Positions 29,830-39,433 of a DNA stretch of 64,000 bases are shown piece by piece. A model generated the notes under the pieces. It was not told where the DNA came from and did not search any database. It saw nothing but the letters and a program-made list of their open reading frames with translations. This DNA is from Aggregatilinea lenta (GTDB lineage Bacteria > Chloroflexota > Anaerolineae > Aggregatilineales > Aggregatilineaceae). Numbering within the stretch: the first letter of the stretch is position 1; each line of letters opens with the position of its first letter. A program made the translations under genes and the position numbers. Location: positions 124,001-188,000 of the forward strand of contig NZ_BFCB01000002.1 of NCBI RefSeq assembly GCF_003569045.1, in the 5' to 3' direction.

Positions 29830-29941
29830 GCAGACGACTTCACACGTTACAACGAATAGAAACAGTTACGGGCCGGGGGCGGCCTGGTAATGCTGTGTTG
29901 CCTCCGCACCTTGCTTGAGTATTGGGGGAAACCAACCTGAC

Positions 29942-31072
29942 ATGGACGAACTATCGCATCGAGAGCGCGTAGCGCTCGCCTTCGATCACCGCGAACCGGA
30001 CCGCGTGCCCATCGACTTCATGGGGAACGCGTCGATGGTTCTGGACGAAACGTACTTTCGCCTCAAGGCGCACCTGGGTATCACGGGGGACATCCCGCCA
30101 GTGCGTGAGGGCACCACCGCGAACTATTACGACGAGCGCATCCTGGACATCTTCGACGTCGACTTCCGGCGCCTGTTCCTGCCCACCCACCCCGGCTTTT
30201 ACCGTACCCATCCCGATGGCACGTTCAGCGACGTCTGGGGCATGATCTGGCAGAAGAACGGCATCTTCGTCAACTGTATAAGCAGCCCGCTGGCCGACGC
30301 CAACCTGGACGAAATCGCAAACTACGCGTGGCCGGACCCCTTACAGGTCTGGCACGCCACCGGCCTTGCCGAGATGGCCCGGCACAAGTATGAAACGAGC
30401 GACTACGCCCTGGTCGCGCGCAACCCGATCACGTGGGGGTTTCTGGACCTGGGCTGCCGGATGCGTGGCATGGAGCAGTTCCTGATGGACCTGGCGCTCA
30501 ACCCCGAAGCTGCGCAACTGATCATCGACCGGGCGCTGGACATCTACCTGAACATTTACGCGATGTTTCTGCGCGAGATTGGCCCTTACGTGCAGGTGGT
30601 TGAAACCGCCGACGATCTCGGCACGCAGCGCAGCCTGTTGATCTCGCCTGACACGTACAGAACGTTCTTCAAGCCCGCCCAGACACGTCTCAACACGTTG
30701 ATCAAAGACTATGCGCCCCAGGCCCGCATCTTCTTCCACTGCGACGGCGCGATCACCAAGCTGATTCCCGACCTGATCGAGGCCGGGATCGAAATCCTGA
30801 ACCCGGTCCAGCCCTCCGCAAAAGGCATGGAATCGGCGGATCTTAAGCGCCAGTTCGGGGATCATCTGATCTTTCACGGTGCAGTAGATCAGAAGCCCCA
30901 GGAGGGCACCGAAGACGATGTTCGCGCTGAAGTACGGCGGCGCATCGACGCGCTGGCACCCGGCGGCGGGTACGTGCTTTCAACCTCGAACGTGATCGTC
31001 GATCCGCCGCTCGAAAACATCGTCGCAATTTTCAATGAAGCGCACAGCTATGGGCGCTACCCTGTCGGGTAA
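29942..31072 (+). CDS. Uroporphyrinogen decarboxylase/methyltransferase-family protein
   Basis: The 376-residue protein begins MDELSHRERVALAFDHREPD and RVPIDFMGN, the opening pattern of the UroD-like superfamily that includes corrinoid methyltransferases (MtaA, CmuA). Late motifs include ARIFFHCDGAITKLIPDLIE, FHGAVDQKPQEGT and GGGYVLSTSNVIVDPP. Its position with a sugar operon, away from haem genes, argues against haem synthesis. Such proteins are often found near sugar operons in this type of genome, with unknown function. The ATG at 29942 is used. Confidence 0.82.
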   Translation: MDELSHRERVALAFDHREPDRVPIDFMGNASMVLDETYFRLKAHLGITGDIPPVREGTTANYYDERILDIFDVDFRRLFLPTHPGFYRTHPDGTFSDVWGMIWQKNGIFVNCISSPLADANLDEIANYAWPDPLQVWHATGLAEMARHKYETSDYALVARNPITWGFLDLGCRMRGMEQFLMDLALNPEAAQLIIDRALDIYLNIYAMFLREIGPYVQVVETADDLGTQRSLLISPDTYRTFFKPAQTRLNTLIKDYAPQARIFFHCDGAITKLIPDLIEAGIEILNPVQPSAKGMESADLKRQFGDHLIFHGAVDQKPQEGTEDDVRAEVRRRIDALAPGGGYVLSTSNVIVDPPLENIVAIFNEAHSYGRYPVG

Positions 31073-31646: not shown

Positions 31647-31686
31647 GTCCTACCAGACTACACCGGTTAAGTTGAGGCACGTCTCC

Positions 31687-32439
31687 ATGGCAGACAGGTT
31701 TGAAATCGGTCCGGTTAAGGGCACCGAACTTCTCTCCGATCAGGTTTATACCCATCTCAAGGACCGCCTGATCGCCGGTCACTTTCCGCCCGGCTTCAAG
31801 CTCCCGGCAGAAAGCGAACTGGCGAAAAGCCTCAACGTAAGCCGTGTGTCGCTGCGGGCCGCCTTGCAACGGCTGGAACTCGAAGGCTATATCGAGCGCA
31901 AACGCGGGGTCGGCACGTTCGTCATCGACCGCAATCCGCTCCACCTGGAGGCGGGGATCGAAAAGCTGATCTCAATGTCGGAGGTCATCCGTTCGCGCGG
32001 GCATAAACCGGGGACAGGCGAGACCAAAGTTTATGCACAATCGGCTGACGACGAGATCGCGGCGCGCCTGGGTCTCAATCCCGGCGATCCAGTGTCGGTG
32101 ATCGAGCGCGTGCGCACCATCGATGATCAGCCGGTGTTTTGGGACAGCAGTTGGTTCCCGGCCCGCGTACTGCCCCCGACCACCCCGCCCGCCAGCATCG
32201 GCGAGTCGCTATTCTCCTACGTGGAGCAGAAGCTCGGCCTCACCATCAGCCACGCGGTGGCACGCCTGCTGCCCGCGGTCGTGGACGATTTTCTGGCGGA
32301 AAAACTGGACGTGCCCACCAACACGCTCCTGATCAAGCTGGCCCAGGTCCACTACATTCAGGACAACACGCCTGTCTGGTACTCGACGCTGCTCTACCGG
32401 GAAAGCGAGTTTAGCTGGTACATCGTCCGCACGCGGTGA
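31687..32439 (+). CDS. GntR-family regulator, HutC/UTRA type
   Basis: The 250-residue regulator has a winged-helix N-terminus (KLPAESELAKSLNVSRVSLR and the following QRLELEGYIERKRGVGTFV) and a UTRA ligand domain from about residue 80 (IERVRTIDDQPVFWDSSWF and LLYRESEFSWYIV at the end). The start is the ATG at 31687 with GAGG nine bases upstream. It precedes a ribose-type operon and a consensus promoter with a palindrome, so it is likely the autoregulated controller of that operon. Confidence 0.92.
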   Translation: MADRFEIGPVKGTELLSDQVYTHLKDRLIAGHFPPGFKLPAESELAKSLNVSRVSLRAALQRLELEGYIERKRGVGTFVIDRNPLHLEAGIEKLISMSEVIRSRGHKPGTGETKVYAQSADDEIAARLGLNPGDPVSVIERVRTIDDQPVFWDSSWFPARVLPPTTPPASIGESLFSYVEQKLGLTISHAVARLLPAVVDDFLAEKLDVPTNTLLIKLAQVHYIQDNTPVWYSTLLYRESEFSWYIVRTR

Positions 32440-32601
32440 TCCGTGCCGCGACGCGGCGTCTTGCTCTTTATAAACCTGTTGTTCGACTTCACGGAATGCC
32501 CCTCCACTGCCACCCCATCGCATCTTCCGTCAACCAAACTTTATGTGCCCGGAACCAGCGTGGTTCCTTAACTATTTCGGATGAAAGGATGTTTGTTACG
32601 C

Positions 32602-33045
32602 ATGAAGACGCATGGGGTTCTCCATAACGATCTGGCGCGTGCCATTGCCCGAATGGGCCACGGAGATATGCTGGTCATCACCGATCGCGGCTTCCCGTTT
32701 CCCCGTCACCAGTACACGGAATGCATCGATCTGTCGATTGGCCGTGGCATGCCGCAGGTAGTCGACGTCCTGAAAGTGATCCTCGAAGAACTTGAGATCG
32801 AACAGGTCATCATCGCTGACGAAACCAAGACCGCCAGCCCTGAGACCTACGCCGCATTCAAAGAAGTGCTCTCCCCCATCAAGAACAAGGGCAACGACAT
32901 TGTGGAAACGAACATCCCCCACCCGGAGTTCAAGGACATGGTGTTGAACGGCGGCCTGGAGCGCAAAGAGGTCAAGGTCTTTGTCAAGTGCGGCGAGTTC
33001 ACTCCCTACGCCAACATCATTCTCGTTTCCGGCGTCGATTTTTAA
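32602..33045 (+). CDS. rbsD: RbsD/FucU-type sugar mutarotase (pyranase)
   Basis: This 147-residue protein begins MKTHGVLHNDLARAIARMGH with the active-site His in HGVLHND, and has LVITDRGFPFP and the closing VKCGEFTPYANIILVSGV typical of RbsD/FucU. It speeds interconversion of pyranose and furanose or of anomers so that the kinase receives the right form. An upstream in-frame ATG at 32,581 would extend it by seven residues. It is the first enzyme gene of the ribose-type operon. Confidence 0.9.
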   Translation: MKTHGVLHNDLARAIARMGHGDMLVITDRGFPFPRHQYTECIDLSIGRGMPQVVDVLKVILEELEIEQVIIADETKTASPETYAAFKEVLSPIKNKGNDIVETNIPHPEFKDMVLNGGLERKEVKVFVKCGEFTPYANIILVSGVDF

Positions 33046-33120
33046 TCCATTGCAAGATACGCCTGGCCGGTCGTCTGTCGAAACCGGCCAGACGCATCCT
33101 TTCCCGTGAAAGGTATCAGA

Positions 33121-33960
33121 ATGGATAAGCCACCCGTTCTGGCCGACATTTTCCACGTGTCCAAGCCGATTATCGGCATGCTCCATTTGCGACCGCTGCC
33201 AGGCTCGCCCCTCTATAAGCCGTCCGAAATCTCAATGGACAACATCATCGAGATCGCGGTTGAAGAAGCGCTCCAGCTCGAGGCAGCAGGCGTAGACGGC
33301 GTTCAAGTGGAAAACATTTGGGACTACCCCTACCTCAAGGAGTCTCAGATTGGCCATGAGACAACGGCTGCTCTCGCCGCCGCGACCATTCGCGTTCGGG
33401 ATGCTATCTCGCTGCCCGTCGGCGTCAACTGCCACCTGAATGCAGGCATGCAGGCGCTCGCCGTCGCCTGCGCGACTGGCGCGCGGTGGATACGCGTGTT
33501 TGAGTGGGTCAATGCGTACGTGTCACACGCGGGCCTGACGGAAGGCATCGCCGGGACGCTGTCGCGCTATCGCGCGTTTTTGCATGCCGAGGACATCAAG
33601 TTTTTCTGCGACGTGAACGTCAAGCACGGCAGTCACTTCATCGTGTCCGACCGCACGCTGGTGGAACAGGCGCACGACGCGGAAACGGAAGGGGCGGAGG
33701 CGCTCATCGTGACGGGGTTTGAGACGGGCCAGCCGCCCACCCCGGACAACGTGCAGGCCCTCAGCGAGCACGTCGGCATCCCCGTGATCATTGGCAGCGG
33801 CATGACGACCGAAAATGCCGCCAGCCTGCTCCAGTACGCCGACGGCGCAATCGTCGGCAGCTATTTCAAGCGCGACCACCAATGGAAGATGCCAGTCGAT
33901 GAGGCCATCGCGCGCGAGTTTATGGATCGAGTAAAAGAGTTTCGGGAAGGGCTGTCATGA
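33121..33960 (+). CDS. BtpA/SgcQ-family TIM-barrel protein, paralogue 1
   Basis: The 279-residue protein has the BtpA pattern: SKPIIGMLHLRPLPGSPLY at the N-terminus, GVNCHLNAGMQALAVACATG, and C-terminal IPVIIGSGMTTENAASLLQ with ADGAIVGSYFKRDHQW. BtpA was named for photosystem I assembly, but the family is mostly found in sugar operons (SgcQ of E. coli), where its reaction is unknown; it has a phosphate-binding TIM barrel. It overlaps the kinase gene by ATGA. A second paralogue is at 62,274. Confidence 0.87.
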   Translation: MDKPPVLADIFHVSKPIIGMLHLRPLPGSPLYKPSEISMDNIIEIAVEEALQLEAAGVDGVQVENIWDYPYLKESQIGHETTAALAAATIRVRDAISLPVGVNCHLNAGMQALAVACATGARWIRVFEWVNAYVSHAGLTEGIAGTLSRYRAFLHAEDIKFFCDVNVKHGSHFIVSDRTLVEQAHDAETEGAEALIVTGFETGQPPTPDNVQALSEHVGIPVIIGSGMTTENAASLLQYADGAIVGSYFKRDHQWKMPVDEAIAREFMDRVKEFREGLS

Positions 33961-34913
33961 AGACTCCAAATCTATCCGGTCATGTGCTCTGCATGGGCGC
34001 CATCAATATGGACCTGGTGATGTTCATGGCGCACCTTCCAGGCCCAGGCGAAACCGTAGTGACCGACAATTTCTCAACATTCCCCGGCGGCAAAGGCGGC
34101 AACCAGGCTGTCACGGCTGCCGTTCTGGGTGGCGAGACGCGCTATTTCGGCAAGCTGGCACAGGATTCATTCAGCGACCAGTTGATCGAAGCCATGAGCG
34201 GGCGGGGCGTGGAAACGGATTCCATCCTGCGGGAGCCAGAATCAACCGCCGGGATCGCCATCATCCGGGTGGATGCCAGCGGCCAGAACTCGATCTCCTT
34301 CACGCCCGGCGCCAACGCGCACCTGACTCCGCAAGAAGTAGGCGAAAACACCCCCTATTTCACGCCCGGCGCCATCCTGGTGATCACATGTGAAATCGAT
34401 GCTGAAACGGTCTATGCGGCAGTCCGGCAGGCCCGCGAGCAGGGGATGTTCGTCATCATGGACCCGGCCCCGGTACCCGCCCAGCCGTTCCCCGCCGACA
34501 TTCCCGCCTGCGTGGACGTGATCAAGCCGAACGAGACCGAAGCGTTCCACATCACCGGGATCGCCGTGAAGGACTTCGAGACCGCCGAGCAAGCCATTCG
34601 CAAGATGCTGGGCATGGGCTTTGCCTGCCCCGTGGTCACGCTCGGCGACCGGGGTGCGGTGGCGTACGTGGACGGCCAGATCAAGCGCATCGACCCGATC
34701 AAGGTGAATGTGGTCGACAGCACCGCTGCCGGAGACGTTTTTTCCGGCGCGCTGGCTGCGTCACTCGCGCGGGGCCAGCAGCTCGACGCCGCGCTCGACT
34801 TCGCTACGGCAGCGGCAGCGCTGAGCACCACCGTCCAGGGCGCGCAGACGTCGATCCCCTCCCTCGAACAGGTTGAGGATCTGCTCCGGCAGCGCGCGGC
34901 TCAGGGCGCGTAA
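33957..34913 (+). CDS. rbsK: PfkB-family ribokinase
   Basis: This 318-residue kinase shows GKGGNQAVTAAVLGGETRYF early, the VIKPNETEAFHITGI loop (about 185) and the ATP/anion-hole signature DSTAAGDVFSGALAAS (about 255), with the catalytic Asp in GD. It phosphorylates a pentose or hexose at O5/O6 with ATP. RbsD upstream and RbsACB downstream make ribose or a close analogue the likely substrate. Confidence 0.9.
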   Translation: MKTPNLSGHVLCMGAINMDLVMFMAHLPGPGETVVTDNFSTFPGGKGGNQAVTAAVLGGETRYFGKLAQDSFSDQLIEAMSGRGVETDSILREPESTAGIAIIRVDASGQNSISFTPGANAHLTPQEVGENTPYFTPGAILVITCEIDAETVYAAVRQAREQGMFVIMDPAPVPAQPFPADIPACVDVIKPNETEAFHITGIAVKDFETAEQAIRKMLGMGFACPVVTLGDRGAVAYVDGQIKRIDPIKVNVVDSTAAGDVFSGALAASLARGQQLDAALDFATAAAALSTTVQGAQTSIPSLEQVEDLLRQRAAQGA

Positions 34914-34915
34914 CG

Positions 34916-36454
34916 GTGGCGAAGCCCGCGAACGCAGCAGTGGGAGTGCAGGCATTGGAAACGAAAAAGGTTGCGCTCGAAGTCGTCAACGTCTCGAAAC
35001 GATATGGCGGGATCGATGCGCTCAAGAGTGTGAACCTGAGCCTCTACGAAGGCGAAGTATGCGCGCTGCTGGGGGAAAACGGGGCCGGAAAATCGACCCT
35101 GATCAAGATCCTGACCGGCGTGGAGTCGCGTGACGAGGGCGAGATCCTGCTGTACGGCAGCGCGCCGCACATCACCGATCCAGTCGCGGCGCGGCAGCAC
35201 GGCATCGCCGCCATTTACCAGGAGCTGAGCCTGATCGAGCACCTGACGGTCGCGCAGAACATCTTCCTGGGTCACGAACCGACCAAAACGCTGGGCTGGA
35301 ACGACAACCGGCGTCTGGTGCAGGGTGCGGCAGGCTACCTGCAGCGATTCCACATCGACATCGACCCGCGCGCCCGCGTGTGCGACCTGGGCATGGGGCA
35401 AAAACGCATCGTCGAGATCGTGAAGGCACTGACCATCAACGCGCGCATCCTCTTTCTGGACGAGCCGACAACCGGCATGAGCCAGCCCGAGATCGAGCGC
35501 CTGTTCCAGATTATGGGCGAACTCAAGGCCCACCGGGTGACGATGATCTACATCTCGCACTACCTGGACGAGGTGTTCAAAGTCTGCGATCGGGCGGCAG
35601 TGTTGCGCGACGGCCAATCCGTGGGCATCTTCCAGGTGCAGGACGTCGATAAGCCGACGCTGATCCGGGCCATGATCGGCAAGGATCTCCAGGCCGCCAC
35701 AGCCCGCGCGACCCGCGCCTTCCCACAGGACGCTGTCGTGCTGGAAGCGGTCGATTTCCAGGCGGAAGGCATGCAGCAGCCCCTCAGCTTCACCATCGCG
35801 GCGGGGGAGATCGTCGGCGTGACGGGCATCATCGGCTCCGGTAAGTCCGAGCTGGGACAGGGGCTGTTCGGCGTGACCCGGCAAACCGGGGGCACGCTGC
35901 GCCTGAACAAGCAGACGGTCCGCTTTCGCAGCCCGGAAGCAGCCCGCAAGCATGGCGTCGCGTTCATCCCCGAAGACCGCAAGCAGCAGGGCCTGCTGCT
36001 GCCGCATTCCGTCGAAGCCAACCTGACCCTGGCGAACCTGGATCGCGTGTCGGAGAAGGCATTTGTCGTACCGCGCAGGCGGCGGCGCTGCGCCACCGAT
36101 ATCGCGGAGCGGCTGCGCATCGTGCCGCTCAACGTCAGGATGCGCGCCCGCAATCTGTCGGGCGGCAACCAGCAAAAGGTCGTCATCGGCAAGTGGTTGA
36201 TCGGGGACCCGACGTTGCTGATCATGGACGAGCCAACCCGCGGCGTGGACGTGGGTGCCAAGACGGAGATCTACAGCCTGATCGAGTCGCTGGCCCAAAG
36301 CGGCAAGGCCGTGCTGGTCCTGTCATCTGAATTTGATGAAGTTCGGCGTTTGTGTGATCGCATTTTAGTACTGCGCCAGGGCGCTATCGTAGGCGAGATG
36401 CGCTCCGACGAGGCCAGCGGTGACCGGCTGCTTTCGTTGGCGCTAGGAGGCTGA
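34916..36454 (+). CDS. rbsA: Ribose-type ABC transporter, fused double ATPase
   Basis: The 512-residue protein contains two ATPase halves. The first has Walker A GENGAGKST (about 60), DLGMGQKRIVEIVKAL and Walker B ARILFLDEPTTG. The second has the looser GIIGSGKSELGQGLFG (about 305) and LSGGNQQKVVIGKWL with LLIMDEPTRGVDVGAK. Degeneration of the second Walker A is normal in RbsA. The start is the GTG at 34916, three bases after the kinase stop; later GTG codons are possible. Confidence 0.93.
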   Translation: MAKPANAAVGVQALETKKVALEVVNVSKRYGGIDALKSVNLSLYEGEVCALLGENGAGKSTLIKILTGVESRDEGEILLYGSAPHITDPVAARQHGIAAIYQELSLIEHLTVAQNIFLGHEPTKTLGWNDNRRLVQGAAGYLQRFHIDIDPRARVCDLGMGQKRIVEIVKALTINARILFLDEPTTGMSQPEIERLFQIMGELKAHRVTMIYISHYLDEVFKVCDRAAVLRDGQSVGIFQVQDVDKPTLIRAMIGKDLQAATARATRAFPQDAVVLEAVDFQAEGMQQPLSFTIAAGEIVGVTGIIGSGKSELGQGLFGVTRQTGGTLRLNKQTVRFRSPEAARKHGVAFIPEDRKQQGLLLPHSVEANLTLANLDRVSEKAFVVPRRRRRCATDIAERLRIVPLNVRMRARNLSGGNQQKVVIGKWLIGDPTLLIMDEPTRGVDVGAKTEIYSLIESLAQSGKAVLVLSSEFDEVRRLCDRILVLRQGAIVGEMRSDEASGDRLLSLALGG

Positions 36455-36455
36455 T

Positions 36456-37439
36456 GTGCTGCTTCGAAGTTCTCATACCCCATCGCTTTCCCCCAACCTC
36501 CGGCGCGCGCTGGCCGGGGTCCGCAAGGTCGTCGCCGGTGAACTGGGCCTCGTCGTCATGTTGTTCCTGATCGTGATCCTGTTCTCGACCCAGTCGGAGT
36601 TCTTCCTGGTCGAGCGCAACCTGTTGAACATCACCCGGCAGATTTCGGTCAATCTGATCGTGGCGATTGGCATGACCTTCGTCATCCTAACCGGCGAAAT
36701 CGACCTGTCCGTCGGCTCGGTCGCGGCGCTGTCGGGCATCGCGGCGGGCAAGACGATGGTCGAGACCGGCTCGATCACGCTCGGCATCCTGACCGGGCTG
36801 GCCGTGGGGTTGGGCGTGGGCCTGGTCAACGGCGTGCTGACCGTATATGGCAAGATCCAGTCGTTCATCGTCACACTCGCCATGCTGGGCATCGCGCGCG
36901 GTGCGGCGTTGTACTGGACCGATGGTCGTCCTATTTCCAATCTACCCGAGAAGTTCGATTTCTTCGGCGCGGGCTACGTGGGGCGCATCCCAACCTCGAC
37001 GATCATCGCCGTCGTCATCCTGGTGCTGGGCTACATCATCCTCCAGCGCACGAAGTACGGGACGTACATCCTGGCGACGGGCGCCAACCGCGAAGCGGCG
37101 CGGCTCTCCGCCATCCCCGTTGACCGCTACCGCATCATCGCGTTCCTCGCGTCGGGACTGTGCAGCGCGGTCGGCGGCATCCTGATCGCCTCGCGGCTGC
37201 TTTCCGCACAGCCGGTCGCCGCCGATGGTCTGGAGCTTAACGTCATCGCCGCGGTGATTTTGGGCGGCGCGTCGCTGGCCGGGGGTGTCGGGACCGTCTT
37301 CGGCACGCTCCTGGGCGCGATGATCATCGGCGTCATCGACAACGGCATGAACCTGACGGGCGTGTCGGCGTTTCTGCAGCAGATCGTCAAGGGCACGATC
37401 ATCCTGGTCGCGGTCCTTGCCAAGCGCGACAACGAGTGA
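36456..37439 (+). CDS. rbsC: Ribose-type ABC transporter, permease
   Basis: This 327-residue inner-membrane protein has many hydrophobic helices and the RbsC core LIVAIGMTFVILTGEIDLSV with GSVAALSG. The start is the GTG at 36456, since a full AGGAGG site sits at 36,445-36,450. It partners with the RbsA upstream and the double-domain binding protein downstream. Confidence 0.93.
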   Translation: MLLRSSHTPSLSPNLRRALAGVRKVVAGELGLVVMLFLIVILFSTQSEFFLVERNLLNITRQISVNLIVAIGMTFVILTGEIDLSVGSVAALSGIAAGKTMVETGSITLGILTGLAVGLGVGLVNGVLTVYGKIQSFIVTLAMLGIARGAALYWTDGRPISNLPEKFDFFGAGYVGRIPTSTIIAVVILVLGYIILQRTKYGTYILATGANREAARLSAIPVDRYRIIAFLASGLCSAVGGILIASRLLSAQPVAADGLELNVIAAVILGGASLAGGVGTVFGTLLGAMIIGVIDNGMNLTGVSAFLQQIVKGTIILVAVLAKRDNE

Positions 37440-37657: not shown

Positions 37658-39433
37658 ATGAAAAAGACACTTCTGGTTCTTGTACTGGTTCTGGCCCTGT
37701 CCGTTCCGAGCGGGCTGGTATTGGCTGCGCCCCAGGCTCAGGCAGACACCCCGACCATCGGCTTCGCAGTCTCGACACTGGCGAACCCATTCTTCGTGAC
37801 GATGAAGGACGCGGGCGAGGCGAAGGCTGCCGAGCTGGGCATGGAAATGATCACGCTCGACGCGCAGGACAACAACGAGCGTCAGGCATCGCAAATCGAA
37901 GACCTGATCAGCCGCGGCGTGGACGTGCTGATCGTCAACCCGGTGGACTCGGACGCTGTGGCGACCTCGATCGAAGCGGCGAACGAAGCGGGCATGCCCG
38001 TCATCACCGTCACCCGTCCGTCGAACGGCGGCGAGGTCGTGCAGCACCTGGATATCGACAACGCCTACGCCGGGCAGTTGGTGGCCGAGCAGTTGGTGAA
38101 GGACCTGGGCGGAGAGGGTCGCGTGGCGATCTTGGAAGGCATCCCCGGTGCCCCTTCCGCCCAGCAACGCCAGGAAGGCTTCCTCGCGGTTCTGGAAGAA
38201 TACCCAGACATCGAGGTTGTGTCGAGCCTGACCGCCAACTACTCCCGTGAGGAAGGCGCGCGCGTGATGGACGACGTGCTGCAGGCCAACCCCGCGCTCG
38301 ACGCCGTCTACGGCCACAACGACGAGATGGCCCTGGGCGCCGTGCGCTCGATCAAAGCCGCCGACCGCATGAGCGAAATCAAGGTCTACGGCATCGACGC
38401 CGTCGACGACGCCTTACAGGCCATCAAGGATGGCGAGATGATGGCCACCGTCAAGCAGCAGCCCGACGTCGAAATGGAAACCGCCGTCGAGTCTGCCGCC
38501 CAGATCATCGCAGGTGAAGAGGTCGAGCCGCTCGTGATCATCCCCCTCGTCCTCGTGACCGCTGAGACGCTGGCGGCGGAAGAAGCGCCGGTGCAGGTTT
38601 CCGGCACGATCGGCTTCGCAGTCTCGACACTGGCGAACCCATTCTTCGTGACGATGAAGGACGCCGGTGAAGCGAAGGCTGCCGAGCTGGGCATGGAAAT
38701 GATCACGCTCGACGCGCAGGACAACAACGAGCGTCAGGCGTCGCAAATCGAAGACCTGATCAGCCGCGGCGTGGACGTGCTGATCGTCAACCCAGTGGAC
38801 TCGGACGCTGTGGCGACCTCGATCGAAGCGGCGAACGAAGCGGGCATCCCCGTCATCACTGTCACCCGTCCGTCGAACGGCGGCGAGGTCGTGCAGCACC
38901 TGGATATCGACAACGCCTATGCCGGGCAGTTGGTGGCCGAGCAGTTGGTGAAGGACCTGGGCGGAGAGGGTCGCGTGGCGATCTTGGAAGGCATCCCCGG
39001 TGCCCCTTCCGCCCAGCAGCGCCAGGAAGGCTTCCTCGCGGTTCTGGAAGAATACCCAGACATCGAGGTTGTGTCGAGCCTGACCGCCAACTACTCCCGT
39101 GAGGAAGGCGCGCGCGTGATGGACGACGTGCTGCAGGCCAACCCCGCGCTCGACGCCGTCTACGGCCACAACGACGAGATGGCCCTGGGCGCCGTGCGCT
39201 CGATCAAAGCCGCCGACCGCATGAGTGAGATCAAGGTCTACGGCATCGACGCCGTCGACGACGCCTTACAGGCCATCAAGGATGGCGAGATGATGGCCAC
39301 CGTCAAGCAGCAGCCCGACGTCGAAATGGAAACCGCCGTCGAGTCTGCCGCCCAGATCATCCAGAGCGAAGAAGTCGAGCCGCTCGTGATCATCCCCCTC
39401 GTCCTCGTGACCGCTGAGACGCTGAGCGAGTAA
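37658..39433 (+). CDS. rbsB: Ribose-type periplasmic binding protein, tandemly duplicated domain
   Basis: The 591-residue precursor has a signal peptide (MKKTLLVLVLVLALSVPSG, cleavage after LAAPQA or nearby). Two RbsB-type domains follow, residues 33-316 and 317-591. The copies are offset by exactly 852 bp (284 codons). By eye they differ at about a dozen bases, mostly synonymous, with one clear replacement (AGMPVITV versus AGIPVITV), until the ends diverge (AAEEAPVQVSG linker versus LSE). Both keep ANPFFVTMKDAG and VYGHNDEMALGAV ligand-loop regions, so both should bind sugar. Normal RbsB is about 300 residues. Confidence 0.9.
   Translation: MKKTLLVLVLVLALSVPSGLVLAAPQAQADTPTIGFAVSTLANPFFVTMKDAGEAKAAELGMEMITLDAQDNNERQASQIEDLISRGVDVLIVNPVDSDAVATSIEAANEAGMPVITVTRPSNGGEVVQHLDIDNAYAGQLVAEQLVKDLGGEGRVAILEGIPGAPSAQQRQEGFLAVLEEYPDIEVVSSLTANYSREEGARVMDDVLQANPALDAVYGHNDEMALGAVRSIKAADRMSEIKVYGIDAVDDALQAIKDGEMMATVKQQPDVEMETAVESAAQIIAGEEVEPLVIIPLVLVTAETLAAEEAPVQVSGTIGFAVSTLANPFFVTMKDAGEAKAAELGMEMITLDAQDNNERQASQIEDLISRGVDVLIVNPVDSDAVATSIEAANEAGIPVITVTRPSNGGEVVQHLDIDNAYAGQLVAEQLVKDLGGEGRVAILEGIPGAPSAQQRQEGFLAVLEEYPDIEVVSSLTANYSREEGARVMDDVLQANPALDAVYGHNDEMALGAVRSIKAADRMSEIKVYGIDAVDDALQAIKDGEMMATVKQQPDVEMETAVESAAQIIQSEEVEPLVIIPLVLVTAETLSE
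37754..39433 (+). repeat. In-frame direct repeat of 852 bp within rbsB
   Basis: Copy 1 runs from 37,754 to about 38,605 and copy 2 from 38,606 to the stop at 39,433. Differences such as GACGCGGGCGAG versus GACGCCGGTGAA show that they are two real copies, not an assembly echo. Confidence 0.92.

Follow-up and report, generated by a model that had tools for sequence, protein, structure and literature searches.

Why should a single secreted receptor of a bacterial sugar importer carry two nearly identical binding domains? The rbsB gene that raises this question lies in a 64,000-nucleotide stretch of the Aggregatilinea lenta genome (hereafter the window; contig NZ_BFCB01000002.1, positions 124,001 to 188,000), where it occupies positions 37658-39433 of the forward strand and encodes 591 amino acids uninterrupted in one frame (features are collected in Table 1). 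CUT2 substrate-binding proteins usually have one binding domain per chain, although this is not strictly a defining property of the family. A profile search finds two PF13407 (Peripla_BP_4) stretches in the encoded protein, each a domain (E 1.8e-137 for the protein as a whole; 457.5 bits, gathering cut-off 35.1). By its sequence it is a CUT2 or RbsB-type substrate-binding protein, and with two domains in place of the usual one per chain it is a variant of that family. Its N-terminus, read both by eye and by pattern, is signal-like and without a lipobox; as there is no lipobox cysteine, the protein is probably exported with cleavage by signal peptidase I.

Table 1. Features of the tandem rbsB gene and its operon (positions in the window)
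Feature	Position	Strand	Remarks
GntR/UTRA regulator	31672..32439	+	upstream of operon
RbsD/FucU mutarotase-type protein	32581..33045	+	
BtpA-family protein	33106..33960	+	PF03437
PfkB-family (ribokinase-like) sugar kinase	33957..34913	+	
RbsA-type double ABC ATPase	34916..36454	+	two PF00005 stretches
RbsC-type permease	36456..37439	+	PF02653
Signal peptide and short mature N-terminus (MKKTLLVLVLVLALSVPSGLVLAAPQAQAD)	37658..37747	+	no lipobox cysteine
RbsB-type domain 1, complete	37748..38578	+	PF13407, residues about 31-307
Inter-domain linker, about EEAPVQVSG	38579..38605	+	unrepeated; pLDDT falls to about 75-81
RbsB-type domain 2, including stop codon	38606..39433	+	98.9% identical to domain 1

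The original prediction had described a secreted protein with a pair of RbsB domains in tandem, and a direct repeat of 852 nt in exact frame, and both descriptions are correct; the repeat register is exactly 852 nt. The two copies, compared from 37756 to 38572, differ at 18 bases, most of them silent, and the amino acid replacements between them are M113I, A285Q, and G286S (dS 0.076, dN 0.007, and dN/dS 0.09 by NG86 over 269 codons). Outside about 37756-38580 the similarity between the copies is at chance level; the C-terminal tail, like the signal peptide, is present in one copy only, and the two domains are joined by a linker of their own. A search for microhomology at the junction gave a weak match at chance level. 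Chance is excluded as an explanation of the repeat itself. An AlphaFold model of the protein (pLDDT 91.7, pTM 0.52; domain 1 mostly above 90) predicts that each half folds with high confidence and that the joint between them is flexible, their relative placement not being fixed. Foldseek comparison of this model with RbsB structures gives TM-scores by target of up to 0.92, as expected of a type I periplasmic-binding fold.

The tandem rbsB is the last gene of a six-gene operon with the order rbsD-btpA-pfkB-rbsA-rbsC-rbsB, and the presence of both an RbsA-type double ATPase and an RbsC-type permease places the locus among the CUT2 importers. The permease is presumed to be the docking partner of the tandem receptor, and the GntR/UTRA protein encoded upstream would be the regulator of the operon. 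A protein of the PF01208 (uroporphyrinogen-decarboxylase) superfamily is also encoded upstream, at 29915-31072. The likeness to RbsABC systems includes the rbsD, rbsA, rbsC, and ribokinase-type genes as well as the receptor, each half of which is RbsB-type and roughly 35-48% identical to solved ribose-binding proteins; known RbsB structures are those of Escherichia coli (2dri), Thermoanaerobacter (2ioy), and Thermotoga (2fn8). The solved RbsB homologs that were found are single-domain chains, whereas the window protein is double.

The charged contacts of E. coli RbsB with ribose are Asp89, Arg90, Arg141, and Asp215 (PMC12980723), and the columns that match these four are identical in both window halves. 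Arg90, Arg141, and Asp215 are kept, Thr stands at Asp89, and Ile stands at Phe214, both substitutions being common to the window protein and its relatives in Kosmotogales and Clostridia. Thus, the full set of four charged contacts that marks a D-ribose-specific RbsB is not present, and given these two substitutions the substrate is uncertain; taken together with the BtpA-family neighbor, this suggests that the importer may serve a sugar other than D-ribose. Since no compared pocket column differs between the halves, it is unlikely that they bind two different sugars.

The format is not confined to this gene. The genome (6.2 Mb in five contigs) has nine tandem CUT2 receptors, the window gene and eight other frames with two PF13407 domains, all eight of which adjoin RbsA- and RbsC-type genes. 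Halves of the same protein are 86-99% identical, and the tandems are 26-39% identical to one another. The suggestion that such a protein might be unique therefore fails, there being nine in this genome and dozens in its relatives. The same genome also encodes about ten secreted CUT2 receptors with only one domain, so doubling is not required. None of the 57 matches in the genome to PF01547, the CUT1-type receptor family, is doubled; in this genome the tandem format is restricted to the PF13407 receptor class, and the idea that receptors of every kind tend to be doubled was rejected on these grounds. Two other correlates also fail. The tandem as a substitute for a lacking lipid anchor does not fit, as nearly all single CUT2 receptors of this genome are also without a lipobox (tandems of the order lack one, and tandems outside the order carry one), and a two-gene permease does not accompany all tandems, as there is only one RbsC gene in the window operon and the ribose tandems of the order have two.

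Tandem frames are common in relatives within the family and order (40 examined), the five well-assembled ones having 3, 3, 3, 1, and 1. Other families of the class have tandems as well, and across family, order, and class a few triples turn up besides. A phylum-wide sample showed no clear tandem outside the class, 99 PF13407 domains from ten genomes (Thermotogota, Bacillota, and Pseudomonadota) included no two in one frame, and the open reading frames of the 80 nearest GTDB loci included no tandem. In each of the 15 best plasmid records the match spans about 750-770 nt, or one domain. Halves are 84-100% identical in every one of the 27 tandem proteins analyzed first. In L286, L287, L288, and L290 (G002 and G013, draft assemblies) they are 100% identical in protein sequence. 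The copy number reaches three in L227 (G114:C4), whose domains are 65-71% identical, and at least three in L277 (G057:C70), a chain of near-identical domains that is cut by the contig end. L197 (G177:C54:31933-33735), from the same order, is unlike all others examined in that its halves are only 30% identical, and it could possibly be a dual-specificity receptor with a split of function like that of GlnPQ. Linkers between tandem domains range from about 2 to 82 residues and are conserved among orthologs. The model of L054, which has a two-residue linker, has a pTM of 0.81 and a better-defined domain arrangement; given this and the range of linker lengths, the physical coupling of the halves may differ among tandems. 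In short-read relatives many CUT2 matches abut contig ends (G033:C70:7-723, G038:C150:3-548, G038:C30:10-552, G008:C41:13-672, G040:C32:19-717, and G082:C148:1-789). This would be expected if near-identical repeats broke assemblies, and tandem counts are probably too low.

What keeps the halves alike can be read from orthologous tandems. Sites in a pair of orthologs from related species were classed as concerted (halves of the same protein agree), orthologous (domains at the same position agree), or cross (domains at crossed positions agree, a control), and the number of runs of concerted and orthologous sites was compared with that expected, using 2000 shuffles. The pair L054/L056, whose linkers are identical, has 42 concerted, 13 orthologous, and 0 cross sites in 4 runs (20.8 expected); L055/L057 has 20, 53, and 1 in 9 runs (30 expected); L058/L096 has 40, 56, and 0 in 11 runs (47.5 expected); and L062/L063 has 21, 25, and 6 in 8 runs (23.9 expected). 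The shuffle p-value is 0.0000 of 2000 for each of the four pairs. Gene conversion inside the gene, by which parts of an ancestral tandem were overwritten, explains this pattern; independent re-duplication would not, since no orthologous tracts would remain. The more distant pairs L083/L061 and L085/L059 are wholly concerted, which fits either conversion or separate duplications. The window gene itself appears to reflect recent duplication and/or conversion, and as it has no close tandem ortholog the two look the same there. Of the proposal that its near-identity implies a recent event or gene conversion, the second process is thus seen in the tandem relatives, and for the window gene the choice stands as it was worded. 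Pooled over 33 tandems dN/dS is about 0.21, and replacements stay suppressed in tandem pairs with dS of up to 0.5; the codon comparison indicates that both window halves are under purifying selection.

The origin of the window gene appears to differ from that of the ribose tandems of its order. In a tree of 99 domains (a quick method, LG+G4, with unreliable deep joins), the window halves cluster at 100% support with eight RbsBs, all single-domain, from Kosmotogales (Thermotogota) and Clostridia (Bacillota) and fall away from the ribose tandems of their own order. The Kosmotogales and Clostridia operons match that of the window over all six genes, in unchanged order and at 51-80% identity, with a single rbsB; the ribose tandems of the order have a different operon layout. 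It is most likely, judging from these sequences, that the operon was horizontally shared, in one direction or the other, and that rbsB was then doubled in this lineage. One tandem ancestor for all is not supported, as the tree, a quick one with long branches, would need 13 label changes, at least six of them forced by well-supported branches. Ordinary relatives without the duplication, which had been named together with assembly collapse as evidence against the repeat, thus do exist in Kosmotogales and Clostridia. No sign of collapse accompanies them, and so they point to the source of the gene and not to an artifact.

We consider it fairly probable that the protein is a divalent CUT2 receptor, twinned from a horizontally shared rbsB, whose halves have the same pocket and are tethered at the importer. 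An ordinary single-domain rbsB operon, shared with Kosmotogales and Clostridia, would be present in a tandem-making lineage, where the coding part of mature RbsB would have been duplicated head to tail and in frame, the copies being near-identical through a recent event and/or mutual conversion. In the exported protein each half would bind the same sugar independently, and either could dock on the RbsC dimer. During delivery by one, the other, loaded and tethered, would wait beside the importer. Such tethering would raise the effective concentration of receptor at the permease and might allow two deliveries per encounter; the original prediction had likewise proposed a possible gain in local binding capacity or two sugars per docking. 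This last part, a second site kept close to the importer during delivery from the first, we rate at slightly better than even, by analogy with GlnPQ, whose tandem domains bind independently and in which a longer tether slows transport (PMC8025302); GlnPQ may serve as a precedent for tethered independent domains. There is perhaps an even chance that the wider proposal also holds, namely that CUT2 receptors in the class, and above all in the order, have repeatedly been rebuilt as twin- or triple-headed proteins, among them one horizontally shared as a single-domain gene, and that conversion keeps the heads identical because multivalency aids uptake, a distinct format of ABC import.

The strongest rival is neutral repeat dynamics, in which in-frame duplications are frequent, tolerated, and homogenized by recombination with no benefit to transport. 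The conversion tracts in orthologous tandems do betray active recombination, copy number varies up to the triple L227 and the chain in L277, several relatives have identical halves, and conversion alone could hold the halves alike with no advantage in having two. Yet doubling is found only in PF13407 receptors and in none of the PF01547 matches of the same genome, nor among the PF13407 domains of the ten genomes from other phyla; replacements are suppressed even at the higher dS values, and tandems recur and persist across genera with conserved linkers. We therefore regard the neutral reading as possible and rather doubtful. Gene dosage, in which each transcript or signal peptide simply yields more binding sites and tethering at the importer plays no part, would account for a single signal peptide followed by two complete identical domains, but it offers no gain per amino acid made, higher expression would be equivalent, and a linker that varies so widely across tandems is nonetheless conserved among orthologs; we think it improbable.

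A receptor of dual specificity like GlnPQ, its halves binding different sugars, is very improbable for the window protein, whose halves differ at three core residues and agree in every charged-contact column, even though L197 indicates that diversification of halves occurs. Least credible of all is duplication of a single rbsB in the assembly, given the 18 base differences between the copies (many of them silent), the unique junctions, a genome in only five contigs with eight other tandems, and the many tandems in other assemblies, whose linkers are phylogenetically coherent. With the divalent, tethered receptor as the favored reading, its nearest known counterparts can be compared.

GlnPQ of Lactococcus lactis (SBD1-SBD2; PMC8025302), the closest known system, is like the window protein in having two complete domains in one chain of one ABC importer. 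It is unlike it in that its domains, which have different specificities and affinities, come from an amino-acid receptor family and not from the sugar-type CUT2 class, and are covalently joined to the permease; the window receptor is a separate reading frame with its own signal peptide and a separate RbsC, and its halves are 99% identical with the same pocket columns (a comparison of sequences only). OpuA-type importers (PMC2861598, PMC11065425) likewise have two identical receptor domains per working importer, but there the receptor domain is fused to the permease and the pair arises by dimerization, not by tandem duplication in a separate receptor. In the full text of 5.39 million open papers no secreted tandem CUT2 receptor is described, and tandem receptors appear only as GlnPQ-like permease fusions. 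The tandem, separate, homogenized receptor is a new form of a known kind of receptor, each half of which is an ordinary family member, and the evidence points to twin receptors as an undescribed two-headed format for nutrient uptake.

If this is true, multivalent CUT2 receptors would constitute a format of their own within ABC import. In addition, the orthologous tandems give a clear example from nature of gene conversion within one bacterial coding sequence, and they caution that genes of this kind may be broken or collapsed in short-read genomes. The number of receptors per ABC importer and the effect of a tether on uptake have been studied mainly in the permease-fused GlnPQ and OpuA; as related operons naturally have single, double, and triple separate sugar receptors, the role of valence is directly testable.
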